A DNA stretch of 62,259 bases from positions 1-62,259 of the IMG/VR virus record IMGVR_UViG_3300025127_007337; one strand, written 5' to 3'. The translations under genes and the position numbers were made by a program. This DNA comes from a virus. Positions 1 through 20,129 of the stretch are shown here, piece after piece (within the stretch, counting starts at the first letter, position 1; every line of letters begins with the position of its first letter). Under the pieces are notes generated by a model. It saw nothing but the letters and a program-made list of their open reading frames with translations, was not told the origin of the DNA and searched no databases.

Positions 1-875
1 TTGGGCTACCAAAAGTAGATGATAACGTCACAAAGTGGCTTGCACCTGAGTGGCTCGACACAGCCTGTAAAAAACCAGTTGTCTTATTCCTCGATGAGGT
101 AGACAGAGCCACACTTGAAGTCCGACAAGGTATCTTCGAGTTGTGTGATAGTCGCAAGATTGCAGGTCACACACTACACCCTGATACACTTATCTTTGCT
201 TGTGTCAACGGTGGTCAGCACGGATCAGAGTATCAAGTCAATGAGTTCGATCCAGCCGAACTTGACCGTTATACTGTCTTTGATGTCGAGCCTACCGTAG
301 AAGATTGGTTGTCTTGGGCTGAGGGTAACGTCTGTGGCGAGATTTGGGATTTCATCAATCACAACCACAACCATCTTGAACACAAAGATACTTACGAGCC
401 TAACAAGATTTATCCATCAAGACGTAGTTGGGAGAGATTATCCAATGCTCTCGATAAGGTCGGCTCTGTCAAGCACGGCACGACATTGTATCACTTGGCT
501 CACGCATTTATCGGCTTTGAGGGTGCTATGGCTTTCAATGACTATGTGAAAAACTATTGCAAAGTTGTTACTCCAGAGGATATACTCGACAAGGGCAACA
601 TTAAGTTGACTAAGAAGTTCAAGATTAACGACCATAACAGTCTTATCGAGAAGTTCAAGGCTAAGAAGTGTTTCGATAACAAGTTAGAACCTAGTCAGTT
701 GCAAAATCTTGCTGAGTATTTCACAACACTTCCCTCAGAGATTGCTATGACCTTGTGGCAAGCGATGGGATCAGGTGAACAGGCTACTCATAACGTGGCT
801 CAGTTGCACGGTCTACAGACCAAAGAGGGTTCTGTGCAAGACTTTATCGTCAAAATCCTCACAGCAGGGCAATAA
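1..875 (+). CDS. MoxR-type AAA+ ATPase, 5' truncated by the window edge
   Basis: Reading frame 3 is open from the first bases, so the start lies outside the window. The visible part shows a Walker B segment VVLFLDEVDRA at about bases 84-116, a sensor-1-like strand LIFACVNGG and an arginine-finger-like ELDRY. This order is typical of MoxR/CobS-type AAA+ ATPases, which remodel protein complexes and in T4-like marine phages are often called CobS-like. The Walker A motif must lie upstream of base 1. The C-terminal half is helical with no further motif I recognise. A hairpin terminator that overlaps the next promoter follows at once, so this gene closes a transcription unit. The substrate is unknown. 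Confidence 0.8.
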   Translation, partial: GLPKVDDNVTKWLAPEWLDTACKKPVVLFLDEVDRATLEVRQGIFELCDSRKIAGHTLHPDTLIFACVNGGQHGSEYQVNEFDPAELDRYTVFDVEPTVEDWLSWAEGNVCGEIWDFINHNHNHLEHKDTYEPNKIYPSRRSWERLSNALDKVGSVKHGTTLYHLAHAFIGFEGAMAFNDYVKNYCKVVTPEDILDKGNIKLTKKFKINDHNSLIEKFKAKKCFDNKLEPSQLQNLAEYFTTLPSEIAMTLWQAMGSGEQATHNVAQLHGLQTKEGSVQDFIVKILTAGQ

Positions 876-887
876 GCCTGTGGGGTA

Positions 888-930
888 GGACAGAGAATCA
901 TTTCGGTCATTTTCTGTCCTTGCTTTTTTT
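888..930 (+). terminator. Hairpin terminator overlapping the next operator/promoter
   Basis: GGACAGAGAAT (888-898) pairs with ATTTTCTGTCC (909-919), an 11-bp stem with one G-T pair, followed by TTGC and seven T. The right arm is also the right half of the GGTCA-N5-TGTCC dyad of the next promoter, so termination and the regulatory site share bases. Confidence 0.55.
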
Positions 931-947
931 ACTCAATCGGTTATATT
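905..947 (+). promoter_or_regulatory. Dyad operator plus sigma70-like promoter, copy 1 (short spacing)
   Basis: Dyad GGTCATTTTCTGTCC at 905-919, then directly TTGCTT (920-925), a 16-nt spacer and TATATT (942-947). There are 22 nt between dyad and -10. It precedes the 47-aa gene starting at 973. Confidence 0.7.
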
Positions 948-972
948 ATATACATCAACGGAGGACACAACA

Positions 973-1116
973 ATGTCAAATAAAAAAAAGCAACCTAAAA
1001 AACGTAATATAATACATCAAGTGCATATCGAACAGAACCGAAAGGCTGGCTCTCACAGAGATAAATCGAAATACACTAGGAAAAACAAACATAAAAAACA
1101 ACCACAGGAGGAATAA
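973..1116 (+). CDS. Small lysine-rich protein of 47 aa
   Basis: The ATG follows ribosome site GGAGG at 960-964. The protein is strongly basic (MSNKKKQPKKRN at the start, KNKHKKQPQEE at the end) and hydrophilic, with no recognisable domain; nucleic-acid binding is only an inference from charge. Its TAA overlaps the next ATG (TAATG at 1114-1118), which implies translational coupling. It is the first gene of a three-gene unit driven by the promoter at 905-947. Confidence 0.6.
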   Translation: MSNKKKQPKKRNIIHQVHIEQNRKAGSHRDKSKYTRKNKHKKQPQEE

Positions 1117-1430
1117 TGTTTGAAAATATAGACGAAATAGTTCTGTTGTCGAGGGAGAATGGCTATACATTCTTTGACAAAGAACGACAGGAACAACACA
1201 GAACTAGAGTACTACCCACACTCTATGGTGGTAAGTACTTCATAACACAGAGTCTGTACGATGGTAGACGTATGTACTCTATCTACAAGGCTCTAAAAGA
1301 TGGTGCTTGCGACATTGTTCGTGGTGAAGTCTTTCTATCAGAACGATCAGCACAGAGGTATCTAAAGATTGCTATACTACCCAACATTGTAGAAGACGAA
1401 ACAGAGGAGGTTTCTTATGAGTTACGCTAA
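1116..1430 (+). CDS. Hypothetical phage protein of 104 aa
   Basis: Second gene of the unit, with ribosome site AGGAGGAA inside the end of the previous gene. It is a mixed-charge soluble protein with an aromatic-rich centre (YGGKYFITQSLYDGRRMY) and an acidic C-terminus. No family recognised. It overlaps the following gene by 14 nt, consistent with coupled translation. Confidence 0.7.
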   Translation: MFENIDEIVLLSRENGYTFFDKERQEQHRTRVLPTLYGGKYFITQSLYDGRRMYSIYKALKDGACDIVRGEVFLSERSAQRYLKIAILPNIVEDETEEVSYELR

Positions 1431-1866
1431 ACTATCAGAGCATTTTAAGGCTCGCACACCATACAAGTACAGTAAAGAGATACACTTCGATGGTACAAAG
1501 ATTGTCGCTAATGAGGTTAGATGGGCAAGAGACATAAACGGACGTTGGTTTCGTGAAACAGGTAAAGATCAAATCGTGCTTGCCGAGTATGTCCAACACA
1601 ACGGTAAAGAGTACGCAGTTGTCTACAATCGTGGTAACAAGTGTTTCGCCACAGAGGTTATGCAGTGGGGTTTCAATAGTAATTACAGGAGACATCGAGT
1701 TGGAAACCTCAAGTATGGCGAGGTTGGTAAGCCTGTCAAGGATCAACAACGTGCTTACAAGTGCCAAATGATTGATGCTTTGATTTATAGTGGTGTCATA
1801 TCCCACATTCTTATCCCCACCACACTAGATGGTGATAGCAAGTTCTTCGAGTTGGAGGGGATATAA
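1417..1866 (+). CDS. Hypothetical phage protein of 149 aa
   Basis: Third gene of the unit, starting at an ATG preceded by GGAGG inside the previous gene. It is rich in Tyr, Trp, Lys and Arg, and probably a soluble alpha/beta protein, with no catalytic motif visible. The end is followed by the next dyad/promoter. No function assigned. Confidence 0.7.
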   Translation: MSYAKLSEHFKARTPYKYSKEIHFDGTKIVANEVRWARDINGRWFRETGKDQIVLAEYVQHNGKEYAVVYNRGNKCFATEVMQWGFNSNYRRHRVGNLKYGEVGKPVKDQQRAYKCQMIDALIYSGVISHILIPTTLDGDSKFFELEGI

Positions 1867-1874
1867 ACAAACTT

Positions 1875-1926
1875 GGTCAAAAATTGTCCGTTTAAGGGTT
1901 GCATTATTCTGAGGATAAGTTATATT
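1875..1926 (+). promoter_or_regulatory. Dyad operator plus promoter, copy 2 (long spacing)
   Basis: Imperfect dyad GGTCAAAAATTGTCC (1875-1889), 9-nt gap, TTGCAT (1899-1904), 16-nt spacer, TATATT (1921-1926). There are 31 nt from dyad to -10. Confidence 0.7.
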
Positions 1927-1957
1927 ATAAACATAATCGAAAACAACGAGGTCAACA

Positions 1958-2131
1958 ATGAGAATATACATCATAGAAGAATATAACCCATCTAACGAAC
2001 TAACAAGGTATTGGCTATTTGACGAACTTGAAAAGGCTTTAGACTTTGATGAGTTCTGTAAGGCACAACCGAAGTACAAAGATGGGTTCACCTATCAAGT
2101 CAACATTTCAGATCCCAACGACAGGAGATAA
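1958..2131 (+). CDS. Small hypothetical protein of 57 aa
   Basis: The ATG follows ACGAGG by 7 nt. The protein starts MRIYIIEEYN, has an aromatic and acidic middle (WLFDELEKALDFDEF), and looks like a small alpha/beta domain. It is first of a three-gene unit; its stop lies 1 nt before the next ATG. No family recognised. Confidence 0.6.
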   Translation: MRIYIIEEYNPSNELTRYWLFDELEKALDFDEFCKAQPKYKDGFTYQVNISDPNDRR

Positions 2132-2132
2132 A

Positions 2133-2306
2133 ATGAAAACAGGTGACTTATTCAGATTCATAGATACATACGATGTACATAACATTGGTGTCGGCTCTAT
2201 CGGACTTATTGTAGGTATATTAGAACAACCCGATGGACACTACTATGTCCTTATTAACGGTAGGAACTACACACTACCAAAATACCACATAGAGGAGGTC
2301 AAATGA
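2133..2306 (+). CDS. Small beta-rich (SH3-like) phage protein of 57 aa
   Basis: I chose the ATG at 2133 because AGGAGA sits 6 nt upstream; an in-frame ATG at 2046 would overlap the previous gene by 86 nt. MKTGDLFRF, followed by alternating hydrophobic strands and GIVG-like turns, resembles the small SH3-like barrel proteins common in T4-like phages. It resembles the next gene (MNIGDLVTWNL), so the two are probably tandem paralogues. It overlaps that gene by ATGA. Confidence 0.6.
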   Translation: MKTGDLFRFIDTYDVHNIGVGSIGLIVGILEQPDGHYYVLINGRNYTLPKYHIEEVK

Positions 2307-2521
2307 ACATAGGAGACTTGGTAACGTGGAACTTGGACGTGTATGATAATAACACTCCTTTGGAGATTGGTGTGGTGGTCGGAGATCACACAACATTCAA
2401 AAGAAGAAAGAAGTGTGTGTGGGTAAAGTTCATCAATGGTCAACACTCTCATAGGACAAAGACCTTGTGTAGAGAGAGTCAACTTGTCCTTGTGGAGGAC
2501 ATAAAACAAAAACGGACATAA
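2303..2521 (+). CDS. Small beta-rich (SH3-like) phage protein of 72 aa
   Basis: Overlaps the previous stop by ATGA. It shares with its neighbour the layout GDLV, short strands, G-(I/V)-V-V and a basic loop (KRRKKCVWVKF). That is consistent with a small barrel of the kind often linked to protein or nucleic-acid binding; no direct evidence of function. Its last codons run into the dyad of the next promoter (2514-2528). Confidence 0.6.
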   Translation: MNIGDLVTWNLDVYDNNTPLEIGVVVGDHTTFKRRKKCVWVKFINGQHSHRTKTLCRESQLVLVEDIKQKRT

Positions 2522-2556
2522 TTTGTCCTTGCATTATTTCATCAATCGGTTATATT
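2514..2556 (+). promoter_or_regulatory. Dyad operator plus promoter, copy 3 (short spacing)
   Basis: GGACATAATTTGTCC (2514-2528) abuts TTGCAT (2529-2534), 16-nt spacer, TATATT (2551-2556). There are 22 nt from dyad to -10. Confidence 0.7.
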
Positions 2557-2586
2557 ATATACATCACTGAAACAAAGGAGGTCATT

Positions 2587-2784
2587 ATGACAACATATTT
2601 ATTCATACTACACACACCATCATCAAAGATATGTCGCTATGCTGGAGAGCAAAGAGAAATAGAGTTCACAGGCACAAGGAATGAGTTATTTCAACACATT
2701 CGTTATATGGCAAGAACATACGAAAGACTTGTTGGAATAAAAGTTAAACAAGGAGATCAATGGGTGAGTGAGGGCGATTTATAA
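2587..2784 (+). CDS. Hypothetical protein of 65 aa
   Basis: Ribosome site AAAGGAGG lies before the ATG. It starts with a hydrophobic strand (TYLFILHT), then a mixed segment and a helix with Arg and Tyr. It is a single-gene unit between two dyad promoters. No family recognised. Confidence 0.6.
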   Translation: MTTYLFILHTPSSKICRYAGEQREIEFTGTRNELFQHIRYMARTYERLVGIKVKQGDQWVSEGDL

Positions 2785-2788
2785 AGTC

Positions 2789-2841
2789 GGACAAAATCTG
2801 ACCGATAATCATTTGACAAGTAGTCGAGAACCCATTATAAT
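2789..2841 (+). promoter_or_regulatory. Dyad operator plus consensus sigma70 promoter, copy 4
   Basis: GGACAAAATCTGACC (2789-2803), 9-nt gap, TTGACA (2813-2818), 17-nt spacer, TATAAT (2836-2841). It has the best -35 and -10 boxes of the series, with 32 nt from dyad to -10. Confidence 0.75.
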
Positions 2842-2865
2842 ATAAATATACAACAGGAGAACACA

Positions 2866-3357
2866 ATGGAATATACATCAACAATAGCAAATATGTTATT
2901 TAACCCAAACCATATAAACTATCAGGATACTTGCTATCGCACAGATTATCTTTCTTATAGACTTTTAGACGATACTCTTTATAGTTTTACTTCTGTATGG
3001 TGTAGAGACTTTAGGAACTACCTACAAACAAACGGTATCGTTGTACCTGATGACAAACGTATGTATACACCTGTGGCAAAACTTGAGGGTGGAGAGCTTA
3101 TAGGCTATAACACACAATATGCCAATATGGGTAACAAGTTCTTGGATATGAGGGATGATACAAGAGAGATACACTTCCCAAATCTTTACTTTGTAGAGGT
3201 AGGCAATCACCCATATCCAAAGGAGGCTCGGTATCACCACTCTTGGTTGATAGAGAACTATCATCGTGAGTGTCACAAGATACTCAATCCACCCTCAGAT
3301 CCAACAAAGTTCTTTCTACAACCAACTTCATTTGCACCTACACTACGATCCTCGTAG
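2866..3357 (+). CDS. Hypothetical phage protein of 163 aa
   Basis: AGGAGA precedes the ATG by 6 nt. It is a soluble protein rich in Tyr, Asn and Asp with several Cys and His residues, but no spaced metal motif I can defend. It is the first gene after promoter copy 4. It is followed by about 120 nt of C/T-rich, G-poor leader before the next ribosome site. No function assigned. Confidence 0.7.
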   Translation: MEYTSTIANMLFNPNHINYQDTCYRTDYLSYRLLDDTLYSFTSVWCRDFRNYLQTNGIVVPDDKRMYTPVAKLEGGELIGYNTQYANMGNKFLDMRDDTREIHFPNLYFVEVGNHPYPKEARYHHSWLIENYHRECHKILNPPSDPTKFFLQPTSFAPTLRSS

Positions 3358-3481
3358 ATCCCTCTATACTACCCCTCTACCCTAGTACCCCTATGGGCTA
3401 TCTAAAACACTGTCTATGCGTAAATACAAGCCTGTATGCACTAGGAATACAAGTAACACTATAACAAATACGGAGGTGACT

Positions 3482-3877
3482 ATGTTCACACCTGACACAC
3501 AACCTATAACTAGCACTAACACAAAGGAAACACCCAAATGCAACAAAATAAACTCAACTTTTTCACAGTCAACTCCCTTTATCAGGCGATTGCTATCATT
3601 GAAGATAATGATTTTCCTGATGGTGTTGATCTCTATGATGCAAACGTACTTGCTTTTCAGTATCTCATCGACACAGGACACGCATGGACGTTACAAGGAT
3701 GGTACGGACGTACAGCAAGAAGTCTCATCGAAGAGGGTATCTGTAAACCCAAAAAGACGATTGGGACTCCCTCTCAAAGCACCAACAAAGGTATACCTTA
3801 CAAAACCAAAGTTAAAAAAACCCTCTAAAAAGCCTGTGAGTAAGCCAAAACCTAAGACTAAAAAAAAAGTAAGGTAA
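3482..3877 (+). CDS. Alternative-frame ORF (131 aa) overlapping the 3538 gene
   Basis: CGGAGGTGACTATG at 3471-3484 is the strongest ribosome site here and opens a frame that stays open to 3877, covering the whole 3538-3828 gene in another frame. The translation is Ser/Thr-rich, then hydrophobic ([13 protein letters not shown]), then Lys/Pro-rich ([17 protein letters not shown]). It could be a leader peptide that happens to stay open, a true overprinted gene, or part of a slipped reading of the 3538 gene. I favour the neighbouring frame as the main protein. Confidence 0.3.
3538..3828 (+). CDS. Small marine-phage protein (DUF7417-like), 96 aa
   Basis: AAAGGA lies 10 nt before the ATG. The centre, [20 protein letters not shown] followed by [13 protein letters not shown], matches my memory of a family widespread in cyanophages (A..LIDTG..W.LQGW.GRTA..LI..G). 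The function is unknown. After the family core the protein becomes Lys/Pro-rich and stops soon after a run of seven A. Lys/Arg-rich coding continues downstream in shifted frames to a stop at 3958-3960, just before a terminator, so the annotated end may be artificial. Confidence 0.7.
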
Positions 3878-3963
3878 GCACACGCAAGAAACGTACACGC
3901 ACGAGGACACGCACAAAAAAGTTAAACTCACCTAGAACACATCGACTCTCAGGTATCTAAAAC

Positions 3964-3987
3964 CCCAACTTGTTGGGTGTTTTTTTT
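3964..3987 (+). terminator. Rho-independent terminator
   Basis: CCCAAC (3964-3969) and GTTGGG (3972-3977) form the stem, followed within two bases by eight T (3980-3987). It lies directly downstream of the Lys/Arg-rich open stretch ending at 3960. Confidence 0.8.
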
Positions 3988-3995
3988 GTGTTCAA

Positions 3996-4014
3996 AATAC
4001 TTGACAATACTATA
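3996..4014 (+). repeat. 19-bp post-terminator element, copy 1
   Basis: AATACTTGACAATACTATA recurs with one mismatch at 5590-5608, again directly after a terminator and before a dyad promoter. It contains TTGACA but no -10 box at the right distance, so I do not call it a promoter. Confidence 0.5.
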
Positions 4015-4029
4015 GTAAGAATGCAAGTC

Positions 4030-4081
4030 GGACATTTTTTGTCCAACAAGGATTTGACAGGATCTCCAAATCGGTTATATT
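4030..4081 (+). promoter_or_regulatory. Dyad operator plus promoter, copy 5
   Basis: GGACATTTTTTGTCC (4030-4044), 9-nt gap, TTGACA (4054-4059), 16-nt spacer, TATATT (4076-4081). There are 31 nt from dyad to -10. It starts the two-gene unit at 4113. Confidence 0.75.
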
Positions 4082-4112
4082 ACTAACATCACCAACAACA
4101 ACGAGGTAAACA

Positions 4113-4274
4113 ATGACCGAAGATGAAATAAGAGATATAGCGATAAGGATTGTCGATCAGATGGTATCTGAGGGGATCATTCCTGATTGTACAGACACTA
4201 ACAACTCTATAGAGTTCGAGACACAGGACATAATTGTTGAACAACTAGAAAAGGTTCTCAGGGGGCAACAATGA
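4113..4274 (+). CDS. Small acidic marine-phage protein of 53 aa
   Basis: ACGAGG lies 7 nt before the ATG. The sequence (EDEIRDIAIRIVDQMVSEG, then IIPDCTDTNN and FETQDII) resembles a small protein recurrent in cyanophages with the core GIIPDCTDTD. The function is unknown; it is mostly helical and acidic. Its TGA overlaps the next ATG (ATGA at 4271-4274). Confidence 0.7.
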   Translation: MTEDEIRDIAIRIVDQMVSEGIIPDCTDTNNSIEFETQDIIVEQLEKVLRGQQ

Positions 4275-4420
4275 TATTTGAAATCGCTTTTATTCTTGTC
4301 GCTATCGGTATCTTCTCATTCACTTGGGCTATACTCGAAATCCTAGCACTCAATATATATATTGGTAGATACCAAAAACCAAATCGGTCAAAAACTGTCC
4401 AAAAACGATTTGACAGATAA
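4271..4420 (+). CDS. Small single-span membrane protein of 49 aa
   Basis: Coupled by ATGA to the gene before it. Residues about 3-31 are hydrophobic (FEIAFILVAIGIFSFTWAIL), long enough for one membrane helix, followed by a basic tail (QKPNRSKTVQKRFDR). Remarkably, the codons of that tail are the dyad (4386-4400) and the TTGACA box (4410-4415) of the next promoter. No family recognised. Confidence 0.6.
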   Translation: MIFEIAFILVAIGIFSFTWAILEILALNIYIGRYQKPNRSKTVQKRFDR

Positions 4421-4438
4421 ACTAAAAACAGTTATATT
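4386..4438 (+). promoter_or_regulatory. Dyad operator plus promoter, copy 6 (inside a coding end)
   Basis: GGTCAAAAACTGTCC (4386-4400), 9-nt gap, TTGACA (4410-4415), 17-nt spacer, TATATT (4433-4438). There are 32 nt from dyad to -10. The dyad and -35 lie within the last 12 codons of the membrane protein. Confidence 0.7.
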
Positions 4439-4467
4439 ATAAACACATTCAACAACAGGAGAAAACT

Positions 4468-4635
4468 ATGAATGAGTACAAGCACCTTTCCAACCTACAA
4501 GTTATCGCACTGTATAAGAGTGCAAAGGCATCTGTCAAGGACTTATCGCCCCTTATGGCGACAAATGATAGGCTCTATCTACAACGTCAACTGGACACAC
4601 TACGAAACGAAGTCCACAGACGGCTCAATAAATAA
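4468..4635 (+). CDS. Small helical protein of 55 aa
   Basis: AGGAGA lies before the ATG at 4468. I prefer this frame to an ATG at 4472 in another frame, which lacks its own ribosome site and runs through the next promoter. The sequence is helical and charged (YKHLSNLQVIALYKSAKAS, LYLQRQLDTLRNEVHRR), possibly a short coiled coil. It ends 4 nt before the next dyad. No family recognised. Confidence 0.6.
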   Translation: MNEYKHLSNLQVIALYKSAKASVKDLSPLMATNDRLYLQRQLDTLRNEVHRRLNK

Positions 4636-4639
4636 AAAC

Positions 4640-4682
4640 GGACATTTTTTGTCCTTGCACATTTTCCCAAACCAGTTATATT
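4640..4682 (+). promoter_or_regulatory. Dyad operator plus promoter, copy 7 (short spacing)
   Basis: GGACATTTTTTGTCC (4640-4654) abuts TTGCAC (4655-4660), 16-nt spacer, TATATT (4677-4682). There are 22 nt from dyad to -10. Confidence 0.7.
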
Positions 4683-4710
4683 ATAAATACATTCTAACAA
4701 CGAGGTCACT

Positions 4711-4962
4711 ATGACACTAGAACAAATAATCAAAGCCTTTCTTAACTATACTCAAGACGTTAAAGGTCGCTATGGTCTATCCATTCGAGATGGTGCTTTA
4801 TACTCTTACAATCTCAAGATTGCTGAACACGGTGGTGCAGGCTCTTACATCGTCTATGACTATATGGCAACAGGTTGTCGTGGAATGGTATCGGCTACAA
4901 CGTCAAAGCACGTTGGTATGATTAAAAGAGCCGTTCCTCAGAACAGACTTGTCTTGATGTAG
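4711..4962 (+). CDS. Hypothetical protein of 83 aa
   Basis: ACGAGG lies upstream of the ATG. It has a helical N-terminus (LEQIIKAFLNYTQDVKGRYG), then beta strands with Gly-rich turns. No motif recognised. The following 53 nt are a C/T-rich leader with almost no G before the next ribosome site; this and the next two genes appear to form one unit ending at the strong terminator at 5529. Confidence 0.65.
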   Translation: MTLEQIIKAFLNYTQDVKGRYGLSIRDGALYSYNLKIAEHGGAGSYIVYDYMATGCRGMVSATTSKHVGMIKRAVPQNRLVLM

Positions 4963-5015
4963 TTCCCTACTACCTACTACCGTACCCCCTTACCCCCCTT
5001 ACTCACGAGGTTATT

Positions 5016-5285
5016 ATGAAATACTCTAAAAAACAAAAATCTTTATCTCAACCTGTCATCGACTTATTGTCCCGTATGAGCAAGTTAGTTGATCAAGGTC
5101 TCACACCTATCGAAGCTGTCGAGTGGATGCAAGAGATTGAACCACAATGGCGATGTTCACGAGGTTATCAAGCAACTAAGGGAGGTCTTATACAGGCTCG
5201 CAAGAGACTTGAGAGACGTGTTGAAATGATGAACCAAGTCAACAATGGTGTCACAGTCTTTACTAACAACAAACCAACTAAATAA
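5016..5285 (+). CDS. Hypothetical helical protein of 89 aa
   Basis: The start has ribosome site ACGAGG. It is basic and helical: KKQKSLSQPVIDLLSRMSKL, then GLTPIEAVEWMQE, which looks like one half of a helix-turn-helix, then RKRLERRVEMMNQ. A DNA-binding role is conceivable but unsupported. It is second in its unit and followed within 10 nt by the next gene. Confidence 0.6.
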   Translation: MKYSKKQKSLSQPVIDLLSRMSKLVDQGLTPIEAVEWMQEIEPQWRCSRGYQATKGGLIQARKRLERRVEMMNQVNNGVTVFTNNKPTK

Positions 5286-5295
5286 GGAGGTCACT

Positions 5296-5487
5296 ATGCC
5301 AGAACTTACAGAGATACAAGGAAAACTTAACGTAGATGGGCTTATATGCTCACTAGCAATAAACCAAGCCATACAGGAGATTCAACAGTACCAAGAACAA
5401 GACGATGTAGAGGGCGAACTAGCGATAGCCGTATTAGAGAATATGCTCTTTGCCCTTGTAGACGCTCTAGAACCCATAGAGGAATAA
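5296..5487 (+). CDS. Small acidic helical protein of 63 aa
   Basis: I use the ATG at 5296 because AAGGAGG sits 6 nt upstream. The protein is acidic and almost entirely helical (LAINQAIQEIQQYQEQDDVE). It is the last gene before a strong terminator. No family recognised. Confidence 0.6.
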   Translation: MPELTEIQGKLNVDGLICSLAINQAIQEIQQYQEQDDVEGELAIAVLENMLFALVDALEPIEE

Positions 5488-5528
5488 CACACAGATAACA
5501 ATGCCCTAACAGAGGACATTCCACAATC

Positions 5529-5580
5529 AACCCCACCACGACAAAGGAATAGAGGAGACTTCCTTGTGGTGGGTTTTTTT
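5529..5580 (+). terminator. Strong Rho-independent terminator
   Basis: CCCACCAC and GTGGTGGG close an inner AAGGAA/TTCCTT stem, with eight or nine T following. It is the strongest terminator in the window and ends the 4711-5487 unit. Confidence 0.9.
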
Positions 5581-5589
5581 TGTGTATAC

Positions 5590-5608
5590 AATACTTGACA
5601 AAACTATA
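5590..5608 (+). repeat. 19-bp post-terminator element, copy 2
   Basis: AATACTTGACAAAACTATA matches 3996-4014 at 18 of 19 positions and has the same context, directly after a terminator. Further palindromes follow (CACGCGTG and ACTTCC-AAA-GGAAGT) before the dyad at 5645. Confidence 0.5.
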
Positions 5609-5644
5609 CACACGTTTTCACGCGTGACACTTCCAAAGGAAGTC

Positions 5645-5696
5645 GGTCATTTTCTGTCCAAAAATGCTTTGCTCGGATTGAATAAACGGTTATATT
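5645..5696 (+). promoter_or_regulatory. Dyad operator plus promoter, copy 8
   Basis: GGTCATTTTCTGTCC (5645-5659), 9-nt gap, TTGCTC (5669-5674), 16-nt spacer, TATATT (5691-5696). There are 31 nt from dyad to -10. The leader contains AAACGTCTAATAA, a string seen in similar form after copies 9 and 11. Confidence 0.7.
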
Positions 5697-5729
5697 AAAC
5701 GTCTAATAAGCACAACCAACGAGGTAACT

Positions 5730-5882
5730 ATGAAAATCGAAAGTAAAGCAATAATCCAACGTCGTATCCGTAACATTGAGCAAGATATTAAATCATGTCG
5801 TAATAGTGGTAACACTTTGCGTATGAGATTACTATATGCACAGTTGTCGGCAGCGACGATAAAGTTGGCTAGTTCTAAATAA
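5730..5882 (+). CDS. Small basic helical protein of 50 aa
   Basis: ACGAGG lies before the ATG. It is basic and helical (IIQRRIRNIEQDIKSCRN), a likely short coiled coil. It is a single-gene unit; its TAA overlaps the left edge of the next dyad. No family recognised. Confidence 0.55.
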   Translation: MKIESKAIIQRRIRNIEQDIKSCRNSGNTLRMRLLYAQLSAATIKLASSK

Positions 5883-5901
5883 CGGACATTTTCTGTCCGT
5901 T
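5881..5901 (+). promoter_or_regulatory. Extended dyad, copy 9, without a clear -35 box
   Basis: AACGGACA-TTTTC-TGTCCGTT is a perfect 8-bp inverted repeat. Downstream there is only an A/T-rich stretch with AATAATAAACGTCTAA and no good -35, so this promoter may depend on a bound activator. The hairpin could also act as a weak terminator. Confidence 0.5.
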
Positions 5902-5961
5902 TCAAAATGAATAAATCCAAATAATAAACGTCTAACTAGTACACTTCAACCGAGAGGAAAT

Positions 5962-6552
5962 ATGAAAAACTTCACTATCCAAATAGCACCCATTCGAGCC
6001 CCTTATATGCGAGAGAGACAGGACGCTGTTCCTACAGTTTGCAAAAAGTATGTCAATGGAAAGGTCGAGTATCACGAGTTCCGTTGGAATAATCCAAAGG
6101 CTGGTCGTAATATTATGTGGAAAGATAACCCCGACACCATCGAGGAAAGAGAACAGTATAAGCAACAGTTTGCTGATAGAGTGCAACGTGCGTTTGATAA
6201 AGCCAACATCCGTTTCTTTAAGCACTACGACGGCATTAACTTTGAGGACGAAATAGTGCGTGTCTATGCACCTTATCCAGACCTTGCACCTAATGCGACT
6301 GTCACCGTATACTCTCAACGTGTCCACGAATACAACGCACATCGCGACTTTTTAAGAGACATAGTATCTAAGATGAACATTCAGTTTAACACTCTTATGT
6401 GTGTCCTCCAACAGGGCAAATATGACCTAGCCAAAGGCTCCCTCTACAAGCTAAACAAGTATATGTTTGATTTGCAATCAATGTGTAGACCCCAACATCA
6501 CGAAGTAGTTTTCAAGGGCAAGAATAACCCTCTCACAGCCAACCTAAGATAG
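5962..6552 (+). CDS. Hypothetical phage protein of 196 aa
   Basis: GAGAGG lies before the ATG. It is a soluble, mildly basic protein with beta-rich N-terminal (FTIQIAPIRAPYMRER) and helical C-terminal parts. There is no catalytic motif or membrane segment. It is the largest complete gene of the first 8 kb. It is a single-gene unit bounded by dyads on both sides. No family recognised. Confidence 0.7.
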   Translation: MKNFTIQIAPIRAPYMRERQDAVPTVCKKYVNGKVEYHEFRWNNPKAGRNIMWKDNPDTIEEREQYKQQFADRVQRAFDKANIRFFKHYDGINFEDEIVRVYAPYPDLAPNATVTVYSQRVHEYNAHRDFLRDIVSKMNIQFNTLMCVLQQGKYDLAKGSLYKLNKYMFDLQSMCRPQHHEVVFKGKNNPLTANLR

Positions 6553-6554
6553 AC

Positions 6555-6606
6555 GGTCATTTTCTGTCCGTTTTAGACATCCAAATCATCTTTTTTATGT
6601 TATAAT
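6555..6606 (+). promoter_or_regulatory. Dyad operator plus promoter, copy 10 (poor -35)
   Basis: GGTCATTTTCTGTCC (6555-6569) and TATAAT (6601-6606) with 31 nt between them, the same geometry as copies 2, 5 and 8. The -35 position itself is degenerate, which suggests activation through the dyad. Confidence 0.6.
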
Positions 6607-6631
6607 ATAAGAGTATTCAATCAAAGGAGTT

Positions 6632-6994
6632 ATGAATATGAATAAAAAATCCAAAGAACTTAATAAGCAAATGAGCAAGGCTGTGAGGGACTCACATCAA
6701 CGTATGCTCGACCAAGCCCTCAATCAGAGGGTAGAAGTCACAGACCCTGTAAAGTTACGTGAGATGTATCCTGATTTTACCGATAAGCAAATAGCGAGTA
6801 TGGCGAGACTAAATCACAAGATTAACGTAGCCAACGACTTCCTCATAGAGGAACAATACTTCTGGCTCAATCCATCTGAAAGACCTGTCGAGGGTATCGA
6901 GTATGACGAGGAACTTTGGGCTACCACTTCTTATGATGAAGATAAAGAACTTGCAATCATAAGAGAGGAACAGAGAGACATAGATAATGAATAG
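6632..6994 (+). CDS. Hypothetical acidic helical protein of 120 aa
   Basis: AAAGGAG lies before the ATG at 6632; a second ATG two codons later is also possible. It has a basic helical N-terminus (NKKSKELNKQMSKAVRDSHQ), a central YPDFTDKQIASMARLN segment and a very acidic C-terminus. No family recognised. Its TAG overlaps the next dyad. Confidence 0.65.
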   Translation: MNMNKKSKELNKQMSKAVRDSHQRMLDQALNQRVEVTDPVKLREMYPDFTDKQIASMARLNHKINVANDFLIEEQYFWLNPSERPVEGIEYDEELWATTSYDEDKELAIIREEQRDIDNE

Positions 6995-7007
6995 GTCATT
7001 TTTTGTC
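6993..7007 (+). promoter_or_regulatory. Dyad, copy 11, with an unclear promoter
   Basis: GGTCATTTTTTGTCC, followed by TTTACA (7011-7016) but no convincing -10 at 16-18 nt. The leader carries CGTCTAATAAATAC, similar to the leaders of copies 8 and 9. Confidence 0.45.
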
Positions 7008-7073
7008 CGTTTTTACAGAATTTTTATAAAGAATAATCGTCTAATAAATACATTACAACACAAGGAGTTTTTA

Positions 7074-7142
7074 ATGTTCACAATCTTTTCAATCTTTGCT
7101 ATTATGTTCTTTTCACTTTTTATCCTCACAGCCCTCATATAA
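7074..7142 (+). CDS. 22-aa hydrophobic micropeptide
   Basis: AAGGAG lies 8 nt before the ATG. The product is almost entirely hydrophobic (FTIFSIFAIMFFSLFILTAL), one membrane helix with no tail. The ribosome site and the position first after a dyad support translation; it could also be a leader peptide for the gene at 7192. Function unknown. Confidence 0.45.
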   Translation: MFTIFSIFAIMFFSLFILTALI

Positions 7143-7191
7143 TAATCACTCTTTTTAACCCCTTTATCACTTACTTTACTCGGAGGTCTTT

Positions 7192-7374
7192 ATGACTCAA
7201 ATCACATTTCAAGAATGGCTATCTTCTCAACCCTCTCCATTACCACGTTATCAAATCGTTGAATCAATCAAGTTTTATGGATACTTCGATGTTCTCGACA
7301 CTCACACAGGAAAACGTGAACCTTGTCGAAATCTTCGAACTGCTCGTGCTACTGTTAAGGCTCTTAACAAGTAG
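7192..7374 (+). CDS. Small hypothetical protein of 60 aa
   Basis: CGGAGG lies before the ATG. It is basic, with ITFQEWLSSQPSPLPRYQIV at the start and a helical basic end (LRTARATVKALNK). It sits in a run of three genes after dyad copy 11, separated by C/T-rich spacers. No family recognised. Confidence 0.6.
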   Translation: MTQITFQEWLSSQPSPLPRYQIVESIKFYGYFDVLDTHTGKREPCRNLRTARATVKALNK

Positions 7375-7426
7375 TCAACTTCTTCCTCTCTCACCTTACT
7401 ATTCTATTACTCCAAAGGAGTCCACT

Positions 7427-7714
7427 ATGACTAATACAAGATATAACTTTCAAATCCTTTCCTTTATCACAGACTTATGTGAGAACATTAGTGAAACTGT
7501 CGTGACAGACGATGGAGATGATGGAGAAATGACAACCTTTTATTTTCACAATCCTGTCACTGGTTCGATTGACACCGTTTCATTCTTTGAGGACTACGAC
7601 ACTCACCCAATCATTTACTTGCCAAACTACTCCGTAGGTCAGAAGTCTTTTAAAGACCAAGTAGAGATTGCCGACCTTGAGGAACTTTACGAGTTCATTC
7701 TTATTGAAGAATAA
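7427..7714 (+). CDS. Hypothetical acidic protein of 95 aa
   Basis: I use the ATG at 7427, which has AAAGGAG upstream; the frame is open further back but without a ribosome site. It is an acidic beta-rich protein (TVVTDDGDDGEMTTFYFHNP). No family recognised. Its stop lies at the edge of the last dyad. Confidence 0.65.
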   Translation: MTNTRYNFQILSFITDLCENISETVVTDDGDDGEMTTFYFHNPVTGSIDTVSFFEDYDTHPIIYLPNYSVGQKSFKDQVEIADLEELYEFILIEE

Positions 7715-7769
7715 TCGGTCATTTATTGACCGACTCGCTATTGCTACCCCCCTCCATCTATGATACAAT
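7715..7769 (+). promoter_or_regulatory. Dyad operator plus promoter, copy 12 (perfect palindrome)
   Basis: TCGGTCA-TTTAT-TGACCGA (7715-7733) is a perfect 7-bp inverted repeat, followed by TTGCTA (7741-7746), 17-nt spacer and TACAAT (7764-7769). There are 32 nt from dyad core to -10. Confidence 0.7.
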
Positions 7770-7798
7770 AATAGTACATTCTAACAACGAGGTTTTTT

Positions 7799-8125
7799 AT
7801 GAATGACAATAACCCAATCTTTAACTCTGTCTCTGTGGCTCTTAGCCACTTCCGTGCTATCCCTGTCTTTGACATCAATGTTGACTGTCTCTCTGATGTT
7901 GTCGAGCATCACCGTTATGATGGTCACCCTGATGAGGAGTGTAACTATGAGTCCTGTATGAGAGGAGACTTGGAGTGCTTACTTGATACCGTCACAATGG
8001 TTCAAGAACGAGCCGAAGAACTCTCCATCCTAATGATGGAGTCTATGACGTGGGAAGCACGTTACCTAGCCGCTCATACTGAGTACCACGCACTCTTTGA
8101 GAAGTATGGTTCAAAGTCTAAGTAG
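7799..8125 (+). CDS. Hypothetical acidic protein of 108 aa
   Basis: ACGAGG lies before the ATG. An acidic Cys/His-containing middle (DVVEHHRYDGHPDEECNYES) is followed by a helical, Met/Glu-rich C-terminal half. The His/Cys cluster might bind a metal but matches no pattern I know. It is the last gene of region A and is followed by a terminator. Confidence 0.65.
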   Translation: MNDNNPIFNSVSVALSHFRAIPVFDINVDCLSDVVEHHRYDGHPDEECNYESCMRGDLECLLDTVTMVQERAEELSILMMESMTWEARYLAAHTEYHALFEKYGSKSK

Positions 8126-8153
8126 ACTTAACCTTTTAGTTTGTTCCCTCAAG

Positions 8154-8182
8154 ACCGATGTTTATTCATCGGTTTTTTTTTG
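8154..8182 (+). terminator. Rho-independent terminator closing region A
   Basis: ACCGATG (8154-8160), TTTATT loop, CATCGGT (8167-8173), then nine T. Confidence 0.85.
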
Positions 8183-8342
8183 TTCTGTTGTAGTCGCTGT
8201 TGTTGACCCCCTCCCCCTACCCATACCATCCAAATAAGTCCGACGGTAACGGCGTTTGCGAGCAGCTCGCGCTAGGTACATTATATACCCACAGCAAATT
8301 TCCGAGATTTAAGTCCAAGTCGATAAGTCATTATCCGATACT
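8183..8342. other. Noncoding junction between the two sequence regimes
   Basis: No open frame with a ribosome site. It contains a C-rich stretch, a small hairpin GCGAG-CAG-CTCGC near 8258-8270, and CAAGTCGATAAGTCA (8314-8328), which recurs almost exactly at 8820-8833. Base composition and codon use change across this segment. No tRNA fold was recognised. Confidence 0.4.
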
Positions 8343-8890: not shown

Positions 8891-9799
8891 ATGAAACTTA
8901 CAAAAAATAAATTATATCAGCTCATACAAGAAGCCATGGAAGAAAAACAATACGGAAAAGATTTTCAAAGTTTTTTGCAAATTCCAATTAGAACTTACAT
9001 GGACGAAGAAGATATGCTTGATATTGGTTATCTAGAAATGCACGTTGGTCCTAAACTAGGTTCAGGCTATTCCCGAATGGTATTTGAAATAAACGATACT
9101 CAAGTTGCAAAAATCGCGTATCGTCATCCTGAAACATTAGAAATGAATTCTTTCAATGAAGGCTGTCAGTCAAACCGCATGGAGTACCTAAAGTTTAATA
9201 AATATCCTCACATATTTCCTAAGTCCTACGGTATATTTAAAGAAGATTCAGTCCTAGTTGTCGAAAAAGTAACAGTAATCGAAGAACAAGATCATATGGA
9301 TAGAGTTTTAAGAAATGCTTATCCATCTCTTGTCGAGGGCTCCCTATATCTTATAAACCAAGGGTATAGCCGCATTAATCCTTCTTGGGTTTTTGAAAGA
9401 ATTCTTGACACATGGGACGAAGTTATAGGAGATGCTTCTCCTGTGCGTCGTGATGAATTTGATGTTATGATGCAAACAAGAAGAACTACTGATATTAATT
9501 CTGAACAATTAGAAACCCTTTGGAATATAGTCACAAAAGACACCAAACTAATGAATTGGGTGTCAACTCTTAGACAAATGGGAGTTGAATTTGACGAACT
9601 TCGTGTTGGTAATGTTGGGACCAATTCTCAAGATAACAAACTAATTCTTATTGATATATCAAAATTTGATTTTAATTCTGGTACTGAGGTTGAGGAAAAA
9701 AAATCTTCCGTTAGTTCTTATGATCATCGTATAAAGAATATGGAAGTGGATCCTGAACTAGAAAGAGTACAACCATTTGTTTATAGGAGGAGAAACTAA
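8891..9799 (+). CDS. Kinase-like protein with a head-targeting-like N-terminus, 302 aa
   Basis: I start at the ATG at 8891 because it gives MKLTKNKLYQLIQEAMEE, an N-terminus shared by other genes here. The rest resembles a small protein-kinase-like fold: glycine loop LGSGYSRMV (about residues 56-64), a lysine in QVAKIAY (K74), a hinge-like VLVVEKV, FDELRVGN (234-241) at the place of the catalytic loop, and LILIDIS (252-257) at the place of DFG. The catalytic Asp pattern is not canonical, so activity is uncertain. If the N-terminus directs packaging in the head, the kinase could be injected into the host; that is inference. The next gene's ATG shares the last base of its TAA. Confidence 0.6.
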   Translation: MKLTKNKLYQLIQEAMEEKQYGKDFQSFLQIPIRTYMDEEDMLDIGYLEMHVGPKLGSGYSRMVFEINDTQVAKIAYRHPETLEMNSFNEGCQSNRMEYLKFNKYPHIFPKSYGIFKEDSVLVVEKVTVIEEQDHMDRVLRNAYPSLVEGSLYLINQGYSRINPSWVFERILDTWDEVIGDASPVRRDEFDVMMQTRRTTDINSEQLETLWNIVTKDTKLMNWVSTLRQMGVEFDELRVGNVGTNSQDNKLILIDISKFDFNSGTEVEEKKSSVSSYDHRIKNMEVDPELERVQPFVYRRRN

Positions 9800-10596: not shown

Positions 10597-11577
10597 ATGC
10601 TTTTATTTTTAATCTCTTGTTTATCTGATCATTATTTAACAAACAAAGTTATAGAGGAACGAATCTTGTATGACACAGCTTACGTCGAAGTTATCGTAGA
10701 AGTTGAAAAAGAAGTAGAAGTAGAGGTTGAGGTAGAAGTCGAAGTTGAGGTAGAAGTTGAAGTACCAGAAAATTATCCGCTTTGGTCTCAAACTTACATC
10801 CAACCATCTCTTGGAAATGGTGTTGATATACTTTGGGTTGTTGATCCATCAGGATCGATGATGAATAACTGGGCTCAAGTTGTTCTTGGCGTTGAACAAA
10901 TGATGTTGGCTTTGCCAACAAATGTTAATTGGCGTTTAGAAATTATTCCAACAGATCAAGTTAGGGCTGTAAACTTACAATCTTTTCCTATACTCCCTGG
11001 TGATTCTTTACAAACAGCACAAGACCATTTACAGAATAATGTTCAAGGTCATTGGGAAAAAGGTATGGATGCTGTTAAGGCCTATATGACACAAAATTTA
11101 GATGCCTTACAATGGATGAGACCTAACGTTGCTCTTTTAATTATTTTTGTGTCTGATGAGAATGATTCATCAAGCCAGACTTCTTCTCAATTTATTCAAT
11201 GGGTACAATATCAAAGAACAGAAGTATATGTTACTTCAATTGTTAATGTAGATATAGCAAACTCTTTGTGTCCGAACTCTTATACTCATTTACACGTAGG
11301 TTCTGATTATATGGATGTTGCTAACTACTTTAGTGGTATAGTTATTGATATCTGTGAAACTGATTGGACCTCCGGTGTTACCCAAGCAGCTCAACAAGTC
11401 CACCTTATAGATGAAATACTATTGGATCATACACCAGTTGACATAGATCATATTGAAGTTTTAGTTGATAATGTTGTGTGGACTGACTGGTCATGGGATC
11501 AAGCAAATAATAAAATAATTTTTTCTCTTATGCCACCTGAAGGAAGTATCATAACTGTTTCTTATAACTATTTATAA
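10597..11577 (+). CDS. VWA-domain lipoprotein with Glu-Val repeat stalk, 326 aa
   Basis: The N-terminus LLFLISC gives a lipobox with Cys8. Residues about 30-56 are an almost perfect Glu-Val dipeptide repeat, likely an extended stalk. The von Willebrand factor A domain begins near residue 77 with DILWVVDPSGSM, whose Asp and two Ser form the metal-ion adhesion site. A later LLIIFVSDEND segment fits the fourth strand. The end looks like an extra beta domain. Such VWA lipoproteins with a (V/I)VD.SGSM motif are familiar from Bdellovibrio- and myxobacteria-like genomes, so transfer from such a host is plausible but unproven. It probably acts outside the cytoplasm. Confidence 0.7.
   Translation: MLLFLISCLSDHYLTNKVIEERILYDTAYVEVIVEVEKEVEVEVEVEVEVEVEVEVPENYPLWSQTYIQPSLGNGVDILWVVDPSGSMMNNWAQVVLGVEQMMLALPTNVNWRLEIIPTDQVRAVNLQSFPILPGDSLQTAQDHLQNNVQGHWEKGMDAVKAYMTQNLDALQWMRPNVALLIIFVSDENDSSSQTSSQFIQWVQYQRTEVYVTSIVNVDIANSLCPNSYTHLHVGSDYMDVANYFSGIVIDICETDWTSGVTQAAQQVHLIDEILLDHTPVDIDHIEVLVDNVVWTDWSWDQANNKIIFSLMPPEGSIITVSYNYL
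10684..10764 (+). repeat. Tandem Glu-Val codon repeat
   Basis: Hexameric GTAGAA/GTTGAG variants encode VEVEVEV. The wobble bases differ between units, so the peptide repeat is under selection or old rather than a fresh slippage product. Confidence 0.7.
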
Positions 11578-11581
11578 CGTT

Positions 11582-12343
11582 ATGAAAATTAGAATAAAAA
11601 GAAATTCACAAAACTCTTCTGAATTAGAAGAAAAAAAGAAACGTAGAAAAAGACGCAACAAAGGTGGAAAGTGTCAAAAAGGATATAAGACCCACCCTAC
11701 AAGAAAAAAGAAAAAAATGTTTGGTAAACAATATCGCAATTGTGTTAAAGCTGAAGGTAAAATGTCTAAGTCTTATTGTGAAAACACACCATGCGATGAA
11801 ATGGGTTTTTCTCAAAGAGCATCTTGTGCAAAGTATAAAAAATGCCCTTCACCAAAAAAAAATGAACAGATACAAGAAAGAGAATTGACTCCTCCTGAAT
11901 ACGAAAAGAAAAAAGAAATAGTAAAGGCAATGAAAAAAGACAAGCCAGGTATGTCAGATAAAGATATTTATCCAATTGCTACAGCAACTGCTAAACGAGT
12001 GGCAGAAAGAAAAAAGCGAGATCCAAAAAAAGGAACTGGTAAAAAACCAAAAGGATCTGGTCGAAGATTGTATACAGATGAAGACCCAAGCGACACAGTA
12101 TCAGTTAGTTTTAAGTCTGTCTCTGCAATACAGAAAACATTATCTAAAAAAAGTTTTAAGTCTAAGAGTCACAAACGACAATCGCAAATAATTAATTTAA
12201 TACACCAAAGATCTAGAGCAGCATACAAAAATGCAAAAGATCCAAAAGTAAAAGCAAGATTAAAAAAGGCATTTGATTACGCTAAAAAACGTAAAGAAGC
12301 TTCAAAGAAAAAAACTATTCGAATGAGGAAAAATAAAAAATGA
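11582..12343 (+). CDS. Polybasic Cys-containing phage protein 1, 253 aa
   Basis: Starts MKIRIKRNSQNSSELEEKKK, then a Lys/Arg block. A Cys-containing module (GKCQKGYKTHPTRKKKKMFG, YRNCVKAE) and then YCENTPC and ASCAKYKKC follow. The middle has a helical TPPEYEKKKEIVKAMKKDKP segment and the C-terminus is again Lys-rich. Basic modules of this type occur in marine phages and algal viruses; I know of no proven function. The extreme positive charge suggests DNA binding, perhaps inside the capsid. It overlaps the next gene by ATGA and shares the LEEKKKRRKRR opening with the two genes after it. Confidence 0.7.
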   Translation: MKIRIKRNSQNSSELEEKKKRRKRRNKGGKCQKGYKTHPTRKKKKMFGKQYRNCVKAEGKMSKSYCENTPCDEMGFSQRASCAKYKKCPSPKKNEQIQERELTPPEYEKKKEIVKAMKKDKPGMSDKDIYPIATATAKRVAERKKRDPKKGTGKKPKGSGRRLYTDEDPSDTVSVSFKSVSAIQKTLSKKSFKSKSHKRQSQIINLIHQRSRAAYKNAKDPKVKARLKKAFDYAKKRKEASKKKTIRMRKNKK

Positions 12344-15461: not shown

Positions 15462-15866
15462 ATGAAAATATCTAAACAAAAACTACAAAAAATCATCAAT
15501 GAAGAGCTAGAAATGGCTCAAAATACCCCTGAAATGACCTATTCTGGGCCAAAAACAGGGTCTAAAATAGATGATTCTGAGGGTGAAATGGCTAAAGATC
15601 AGCTACTACACATAGCAAGATACGCTATTGCTATGGCTTCTAAGCTTGATGATGACCAAGAATTGGAAGGTTGGGTACAATCTAAGATAACTTTAGCTAA
15701 AGACTATGTATCAAAAGTGAGACATTACCTTGAAAACGAGCTTCAAGTAGATATGCCGGAACCTCCAAGAGAAGATATAGAGAAAATAATGCAAAAATGT
15801 GAACAACAAGGTGCTGAAGAGAAGAAAAACTATGCCGGTCAAGGCAAGTTCTATTATGAGATCTAG
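15462..15866 (+). CDS. Marine-phage protein with a head-targeting-like N-terminus, 134 aa
   Basis: GAGGGT precedes the ATG. It starts MKISKQKLQKIINEELEM, the clearest example of the shared N-terminal motif. A helical domain follows (HIARYAIAMASKLDDDQELE, GWVQSKITLAKDYVSKVRHY) that is common in marine myoviruses, function unknown. If the first 17-18 residues form a packaging signal, cleavage after an I-x-E or L-x-E motif would be expected by analogy with T4; that is inference. Confidence 0.65.
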   Translation: MKISKQKLQKIINEELEMAQNTPEMTYSGPKTGSKIDDSEGEMAKDQLLHIARYAIAMASKLDDDQELEGWVQSKITLAKDYVSKVRHYLENELQVDMPEPPREDIEKIMQKCEQQGAEEKKNYAGQGKFYYEI

Positions 15867-16116
15867 TAAACGGGTATTTAACATGTTGGGTAGTGTGTAT
15901 AAAGATAAGTTTAAGATAGGAGAGTACGTTCAATATCGTAGAATCTCTAGAAATGAAAACTATGAGGCTTCATTTGTAACGTACCAAGGAATAATAACTG
16001 ACATAAAGTGTATCGACCCAGAATCAAGACCTGTATGGTATGCACAAATCTTGCAAAATGGCGGTCAAACTGATTTAGTATTACTATCGAAAATAAGAAA
16101 ACTGGAAACTAATTAG
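15856..16116 (+). CDS. Small SH3-like phage protein, about 86 aa
   Basis: Two starts are possible: 15856, overlapping the previous gene by 11 nt, or 15883, giving MLGSVYKDKFKIGEYVQYRR, which looks like the usual beginning of this family. The beta-strand pattern with IGEYV, then GIITDI and WYAQIL, resembles the two small barrel proteins at 2133 and 2303. Neither start has a strong ribosome site. Function unknown. Confidence 0.55.
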   Translation: MRSSKRVFNMLGSVYKDKFKIGEYVQYRRISRNENYEASFVTYQGIITDIKCIDPESRPVWYAQILQNGGQTDLVLLSKIRKLETN

Positions 16117-16119
16117 AAT

Positions 16120-18091: not shown

Positions 18092-18445
18092 ATGTGGCAA
18101 AAAAAACGTAATGAAGTAAAAGGTAAATCTTATTACTACTCCACTATTAATCGTTTGCAAAAAGAAAAAAAGATTGATGAGGTCTTCTTGTCAAGAATAA
18201 ATCAATTAACATTAGAAGAAGTTATAGCCATTAAATTGGAAACAGCAGCTAGATTTATTAACCATAAGCTGTATGGCTTTCCAATATGGAAATCTTTGCA
18301 TTATGTTTGTAGAGAAGCTGTATTGATGTTCGCACTTTCTTCTACAAGATCTATAAACGATGCAGCATCATTTTTAGGCATATCTCAATCAGAGATAAAA
18401 GAAAATATAAAAAAATATAAAATTTCTCTTGACAACAAAGATTGA
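18092..18445 (+). CDS. Hypothetical protein with a Fis-like helix-turn-helix end, 117 aa
   Basis: GAGG lies before the ATG. The N-terminal part is basic and Tyr-rich, with a central helical bundle (LEEVIAIKLETAARFINHKL). The C-terminus SINDAASFLGISQSEIKENI has the shape of a Fis-type helix-turn-helix, which argues for a DNA-binding regulator. It is the last gene of a unit, and the -35 of the next promoter lies in its final codons. Confidence 0.55.
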   Translation: MWQKKRNEVKGKSYYYSTINRLQKEKKIDEVFLSRINQLTLEEVIAIKLETAARFINHKLYGFPIWKSLHYVCREAVLMFALSSTRSINDAASFLGISQSEIKENIKKYKISLDNKD

Positions 18446-18457
18446 ACGTGTTATAAT
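18429..18457 (+). promoter_or_regulatory. Consensus promoter of the CGTGT-TATAAT type
   Basis: TTGACA (18429-18434), 17-nt spacer ending AACGTGT, TATAAT (18452-18457), followed by GGAGAGAGG before the ATG at 18482. Confidence 0.85.
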
Positions 18458-18481
18458 AATATTATAATCTTTGGAGAGAGG

Positions 18482-19285: not shown

Positions 19286-19290
19286 GTTTT

Positions 19291-19620: not shown

Positions 19621-19627
19621 TTATGAA

Positions 19628-20119: not shown

Positions 20120-20129
20120 AGGAGATTAT

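Follow-up and report, generated by a model that had tools for sequence, protein, structure and literature searches.

At the lambda PRM promoter, a dimeric operator for the cI protein lies at a fixed position beside the -35 element. Phages P2 and P4 encode activators of late promoters, Ogr and Delta, whose site, TGT-N12-ACA, lies near -55, and mycobacteriophage L5 has stoperators, which are asymmetric repressor sites scattered in the genome. In T4, the early promoters have excellent UP, -35, TGn (extended -10), and -10 elements, and the MotA box, which is not a dyad, is centered at -30 and replaces the -35 element (PMC2988021). T4-type phages also contain promoter early stem-loop (PeSL) cassettes (Arbiol 2010 and Comeau 2014, as cited in PMC4503421). 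Here we describe a dyad, GGWCA-N5-TGWCC, that stands before a series of small genes in the 62,259-nt IMG/VR virus record IMGVR_UViG_3300025127_007337, the whole of which is called the window below. The array of these dyads would work like the operator of a class I/II activator repeated over the early region of a phage, and we consider it probable (about 0.58) that the early gene array in this phage lineage is activated by a dimeric protein for which the dyad serves as operator.

The locus shares features with each of these systems. It resembles PeSL cassettes in having early-promoter units that recur between genes across the hyperplastic early region of a T4-type phage, with flanking genes that vary by copy; each unit here has a promoter. 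As in T4 early promoters, host sigma70-type -35/-10 promoters stand before many small early genes, and as in T4 middle promoters a phage lineage-specific element is joined to a host -10. With class I and II activators (CRP; lambda cI at PRM), a dimer binds upstream of the -35 element or against it, at positions fixed with respect to the helix, and the site described here is likewise symmetric and helically phased ahead of the core promoter. Ogr and Delta, too, act on several promoters from a symmetric upstream site, although their site is a different one that serves late genes through a phage-encoded activator, and no member of that family scored over the cut-off here. Many near-identical regulator sites across a phage genome recall the L5 stoperators, but the dyad, unlike those, is phased to promoters.

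The preliminary description of the window had reported 12 dyads, and we counted exactly 12, all within positions 905 to 7731, with none in the other 54 kb. First-order Markov simulations of the window gave a mean of 0.12 exact dyads and a maximum of 1. All 12 copies lie upstream of small plus-strand genes, as follows, where the gap is the distance in nucleotides from the dyad to the -35 hexamer.

905 to 947, plus strand: copy 1; dyad 905-919, -35-like TTGCTT 920-925 (gap 0), -10 TATATT 942-947
1875 to 1926, plus strand: copy 2; dyad 1875-1889, -35-like TTGCAT 1899-1904 (gap 9), -10 TATATT 1921-1926
2514 to 2556, plus strand: copy 3; dyad 2514-2528, -35-like TTGCAT 2529-2534 (gap 0), -10 TATATT 2551-2556
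2789 to 2841, plus strand: copy 4; dyad 2789-2803, -35 TTGACA 2813-2818 (gap 9), -10 TATAAT 2836-2841
4030 to 4081, plus strand: copy 5; dyad 4030-4044, -35 TTGACA 4054-4059 (gap 9), -10 TATATT 4076-4081
4386 to 4438, plus strand: copy 6; dyad 4386-4400, -35 TTGACA 4410-4415 (gap 9), -10 TATATT 4433-4438
4640 to 4682, plus strand: copy 7; dyad 4640-4654, -35-like TTGCAC 4655-4660 (gap 0), -10 TATATT 4677-4682
5645 to 5696, plus strand: copy 8; dyad 5645-5659, -35-like TTGCTC 5669-5674 (gap 9), -10 TATATT 5691-5696
5884 to 5936, plus strand: copy 9 (tentative); dyad 5884-5898, no -35, weak -10-like TCTAAC 5931-5936 at 32 nt
6555 to 6606, plus strand: copy 10; dyad 6555-6569, no readable -35, -10 TATAAT 6601-6606 at 31 nt
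6994 to 7045, plus strand: copy 11 (tentative); dyad 6994-7008, no -35, weak -10-like TCTAAT 7040-7045 at 31 nt
7717 to 7769, plus strand: copy 12; dyad 7717-7731, -35-like TTGCTA 7741-7746 (gap 9), -10 TACAAT 7764-7769

The dyad-to--10 distances also agree with those first reported: 22 nt in copies 1, 3, and 7, where a -35-like hexamer lies at gap 0, and 31 to 32 nt in copies 2, 4, 5, 6, 8, 10, and 12, with a gap of 9 wherever a -35 is readable. Copies 9 and 11 had been described as lacking a clear -10 or -35; they have no -35, but each has the weak -10-like hexamer listed above, an assignment that is tentative. Copies 9, 10, and 11 thus lack a -35 yet keep the dyad and a -10-like hexamer at 31 to 32 nt, and copies 9 and 11 probably, if tentatively, count as long-class members whose -10 is weak and whose -35 is missing, the TCTAAC/TCTAAT variant being found only in this window. 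A motif CGTCTAA occurs downstream of the dyad in copies 8, 9, and 11 (5699-5706, 5930-5937, and 7039-7046) and is not at that place in relatives.

Related contigs were sought with one further gene of the window:

141 to 875, plus strand: part of a MoxR-like ATPase gene, the start of which lies before the window edge

This query returned eight contigs, seven of which have 15 to 29 dyads per whole record (20 in G006, 191 kb); G008 (192 kb; 53% identity in the ATPase) has none. Pattern scans of viral contigs added further arrays, including those of G009 (184 kb, 25 dyads) and G010 (187 kb, 17 dyads), and G011 (184 kb) has 5 dyads, for a total of 252 across 19 related contigs. Matches to portal, prohead protease, gp32-like, and tail-tube proteins identify these contigs, from uncultured marine phages, as T4-type myoviruses, and the nearest named phages have ~42% identity over part of the portal protein. 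All multicopy or fully laid-out intergenic dyad promoters were found in contigs sharing proteins with this group. Use of the site by unrelated phages was considered and rejected, as the five unrelated matches with a perfect layout were all inside one coding sequence.

With -35 and -10 weight matrices trained on 100 dyad-free promoters (from G006, G009, G010, and G011), none of them within 400 nt of a dyad, we scanned gaps of -8 to +40 behind each of the 252 dyads, using a threshold passed by ~2.5% of random places. A promoter scored above this threshold behind 199 dyads, and the gap was 0 in 122 of these, 8 to 10 in 63, 20 in 12, and another value in 2. The three preferred gaps correspond to zero, one, and two helical turns and cover 197 of the 199 scored sites (binomial P ~ 1e-191 against a uniform spread, a nominal value since the sites are related). 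When -10 hexamers were scored without the -35, they peaked at 22 to 23, 31 to 33, and 43 nt. Given the usual spacing to the transcription start, the dyad center would lie near -43, -52, or -63. Both of the promoter-phased distances proposed in the preliminary description are therefore real, but they are not the only ones, as gap 20 exists in relatives (G009, G010, G004, and G019). The random dyad-to--10 distances that it had named as counterevidence were not found, and its proposal of a protein that touches RNA polymerase from one face is consistent with gaps one helical turn apart, which would keep the site on the same face of the DNA.

A fixed distance might instead be inherited and not selected, if one cassette had been duplicated often, and promoter spacers are indeed somewhat alike within genomes (46% against 30% expected). 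We disfavor such a copying artifact as scarcely credible: three distances coexist, 149 sites differ at neutral positions (88 at gap 0, 51 at gap 8 to 10, and 10 at gap 20), eight letters have stayed invariant while neighboring letters drifted, and the most diverged copies show no random distances. The DNA upstream of the dyad is unrelated between copies (likeness of 26.6% against 26.1% by chance), which fits mobility, as in the gene shuffling by recombination of PeSL cassettes, without showing it.

The extended dyad reads AAnC-GGWCA-N(WWW)N-TGWCC-GnTT. Its flanks extend the symmetry, with A at -3 and -2 and C before the left half and, in the long class, G behind the right half, and the center is an A-tract without TpA, its three middle letters reading AAA, TTT, AAT, or ATT with only three exceptions. 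With positions 3 and 13 left free and mismatches allowed, 209 sites at quantized gaps have 8/8 fixed letters and 3 have 7/8; every one of them has A or T at positions 3 and 13. The choice of W is independent between the half-sites (140/48/47/17 observed against 139.5/48.5/47.5/16.5 expected; chi2 = 0). RNA pairing requires covariation and a symmetric dimer does not, which speaks for a DNA-level site for a protein and against a hairpin in RNA.

This independence bears on whether the dyad serves as a terminator or stem-loop coupled to the promoter that follows, as in PeSL cassettes. Such a role would suit the dyads that lie 1 to 10 nt behind an upstream stop codon, as they often do, and the foldability of copies 9, 10, and 12 (~-10 to -12 kcal/mol). 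Nevertheless, copies 1, 2, 8, and 11 fold no better than shuffled sequences, a -35 follows the stem at gap 0 in place of a T tract, strong separate terminators are present at 5532-5580 and 8151-8184 of the window, and a hairpin would have no need of helical phasing to the promoter behind it. We therefore disfavor this explanation as very improbable, and the dyads are not simply 3' terminators, the alternative that the preliminary description had set against its own reading. Compared with PeSL cassettes, the inverted repeat here differs in being a protein-type site upstream of the promoter, in fixed helical phase, with no pairing covariation and no U tract. Two terminator-like stems, at 3964-4020 and 5525-5610, have similar AATACTTGACAAwACTATA stretches between them and the dyad that comes next, in a layout that is not a normal -35/-10.

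Core promoters differ according to the position of the dyad. When promoters were selected on their -10 and ribosome-binding site alone, the -35 was an exact TTGACA in 97/121 of those without a dyad, as against 2/93 at gap 0, 24/49 at gap 9, and 10/10 at gap 20. The contrast between gap 0 and dyad-free promoters (Fisher P = 7e-35) is also seen inside single genomes (0/12 versus 14/19 in G006; 0/8 versus 17/19 in G009), and the -35 at gap 0 is mostly one letter off (TTTACA, TCGACA, or TTGACT). The extended -10 is found in 72% of dyad-free promoters, 37% at gap 0, 40% at gap 8 to 10, and 73% at gap 20. A 16-nt spacer is used by 60% of promoters at gap 0 versus 16% of dyad-free ones, and 17-nt spacing is rarer beside the dyad. 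Thus, promoters within reach of the dyad are weakened, most where the dyad abuts, as in activator-dependent promoters. They lack the near-consensus -35 and TGn of T4 early promoters and differ from these in a systematically imperfect -35, fewer TGn, and the added operator. Unlike T4 middle promoters, they retain the -35, the dyad ends at or upstream of it, and no AsiA or MotA homolog scored over the cut-off.

We propose that a symmetric dimer would bind the dyad and activate the early array. Lying against the -35 (center ~-43), it would act as a class II-like activator on a promoter with an imperfect -35, and from one or two turns upstream (center ~-52 or -63) it could reach the same RNA polymerase from the same DNA face in a class I-like manner. 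With a dyad and promoter for each small early gene, one factor would set the whole region. Protein binding, activation, and transcription start positions are all predictions from sequence.

The main rival to an activator is a repressor or a factor with a dual role. As a repressor operator, the dyad would be bound beside the -35 by an early product or host regulator that shuts the early promoters and leaves those without a dyad active elsewhere. This would suit the restriction of dyad promoters to the early region and the spread of dyad-free TTGACA/TATAwT promoters through the rest of the genome; it would also suit the consensus cores of some dyad promoters and the position of the dyad, in a seven-phage cassette, G009, and L128, 10 nt behind the -10 of the other strand and over its start. 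However, none of the array promoters has its core overlapped by the operator, helically quantized upstream spacing is not needed for steric repression, and weaker core elements beside the dyad would not be expected. It is mainly because the core promoter is weakened next to the dyad that we favor an activator and regard a repressor as unlikely.

The reverse promoters in question are found in one orthologous cassette of seven phages (G001, G002, G004, G005, G020, G028, and G030), where TTGACA or TTGACT-N17-TAnnnT has a -10 ending exactly 10 nt before the same dyad. In G009 (31169) and L128, a divergent promoter directed into a noncoding stretch that contains ATAGTTATGTAAAGTTTTTT repeats shows the same 10-nt offset. 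Bound to the dyad, a protein would cover the starts of these reverse promoters, and the factor may therefore both activate and repress. A dual regulator, like lambda cI at OR2, would activate array promoters and repress convergent or divergent ones from the same site, which agrees with a single dyad lying at ~-43 of the forward promoter and behind the reverse -10 in the seven phages, and with the reverse arrangement in G009 and L128. We think a dual regulator quite unlikely nonetheless, since the seven orthologous cassettes are one evolutionary case and the reverse promoters are predicted only. The divergent noncoding region lies at the array start, and its ATAGTTATGTAAAGTTTTTT repeats and a AAGTTGGAGATCGTCTCGAACTAATGGG block are conserved between two phages; it is possibly a noncoding RNA or a replication origin.

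G009 31130 to 31420 (L161): divergent noncoding region
L128 5440 to 5710, reverse strand: divergent noncoding region

Several points weigh against activation by a dimer at the dyad. The -52 class does not follow the CRP rule, because CRP with sigma70 acts only very weakly near -50 (PMC2859248). Several gap-9 promoters and all gap-20 promoters have a consensus core, which should not need an activator, and the -35 change at gap 0 could arise partly from the operator flank overlapping the -35. In the one orthologous cassette and the two divergent promoters, the dyad is at a repressor-like position. Furthermore, no gene for the binding protein was identified: no transcription-factor family is among the 25 Pfam families listed for 139 G006 proteins (six weaker families and long proteins are outside this list), and in eight related contigs neither HTH_3 (PF01381), sought as the family of a lambda-type repressor, nor RHH_1 gave a match over the cut-off and the Crp-type helix-turn-helix (PF13545) gave none at all.

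The lack of a match to a CRP-type helix-turn-helix in the phages and the dyad positions of ~-43, -52, and -63 also set the system apart from CRP. In the same eight contigs, AsiA (PF09010) had no match at E <= 1, MotA (PF09158) had one subthreshold piece with an internal stop, and Ogr/Delta (PF04606) had subthreshold pieces only, with an internal stop. No dyads were found in the four distant named phages checked (the nearest named ones, S-TIM5, and RM378). As far as tested, the earlier statement that no known phage system matches this one therefore holds.

Four kinds of protein were considered as reader of the site and rejected. A 108-aa ribbon-helix-helix-like protein (G006 182700-183026) is also encoded in the dyad-free G008, its presumed contact strand varies between dyad phages, and it has no RHH_1 match; its AlphaFold model is a monomer of middling confidence. 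A second family, of 93 aa, occurs in 14 dyad contigs, among them G011, and was not found in G008; its model shows a PH-like fold rich in beta structure, to which nothing in the PDB matched significantly, and it is not a convincing DNA reader. A 78-aa family beside the array has an SH3-like pattern by eye and a variable isoelectric point. The array zinc-knuckle proteins are basic and have conserved CCHC motifs, which are of a kind that usually binds single strands. These two-zinc-knuckle proteins number up to three paralogs per phage and are mostly encoded right behind a dyad promoter (G006 7028-7822, 11038-11853, and 15588-16421, and relatives).

There is a real chance that the binding protein itself is new. 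A fuller version of this idea, which we hold tentatively as doubtful but possible, is a previously unrecognized phage-encoded dimeric activator, with a DNA-binding type absent from family libraries, that would read a 23-bp near-invariant operator, drive the entire early region from three positions one turn apart, and silence the overlapping reverse promoters. A host protein, including one of CRP type, is also possible as the reader. The strict palindrome had 110 matches from many taxa in 84,980 cultured or binned genomes, and no genome occurred more than twice among the 80 listed, so that no clear host regulon emerged, a weak result, as ordinary hairpins match too.

Among the genes of the arrays, the MoxR-like ATPase gene and the gene for the following 391-aa protein are each directly behind their own dyad promoter in nine contigs (G006 18338-19396 and 19475-20650). 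Small SH3-like MKxGDLV proteins dominate the arrays (for example, 2131-2306 and 2303-2521 of the window), with one similarity cluster of 211 members in 19 contigs, an unusual expansion of a tiny early protein. G006 also has genes that could be of use in identifying the host: those for ClpS, ribosomal protein S21, an FKBP, lipoprotein-like proteins, and, next to the array, a trypsin-like protease. In several arrays, the first gene has a consensus promoter with no dyad, and CTTGACATTTCGATrGG is repeated in the start region of that gene:

G001 9324 to 9668: array-first gene with a dyad-free consensus promoter
G003 46308 to 46685, array strand: array-first gene with a dyad-free consensus promoter
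G004 4483 to 4662: array-first gene with a dyad-free consensus promoter
G005 6009 to 6269: array-first gene with a dyad-free consensus promoter

T4 takes over its host by very strong early promoters alone, whereas this lineage seems to have weakened promoters with one operator each, and through this common operator a single factor seems to control the early region. The more than 200 natural promoters, whose core strength varies along with an operator distance of three possible values, allow activator geometry to be tested. Should the factor be a host protein, it would also provide a handle on the hosts of these phages.

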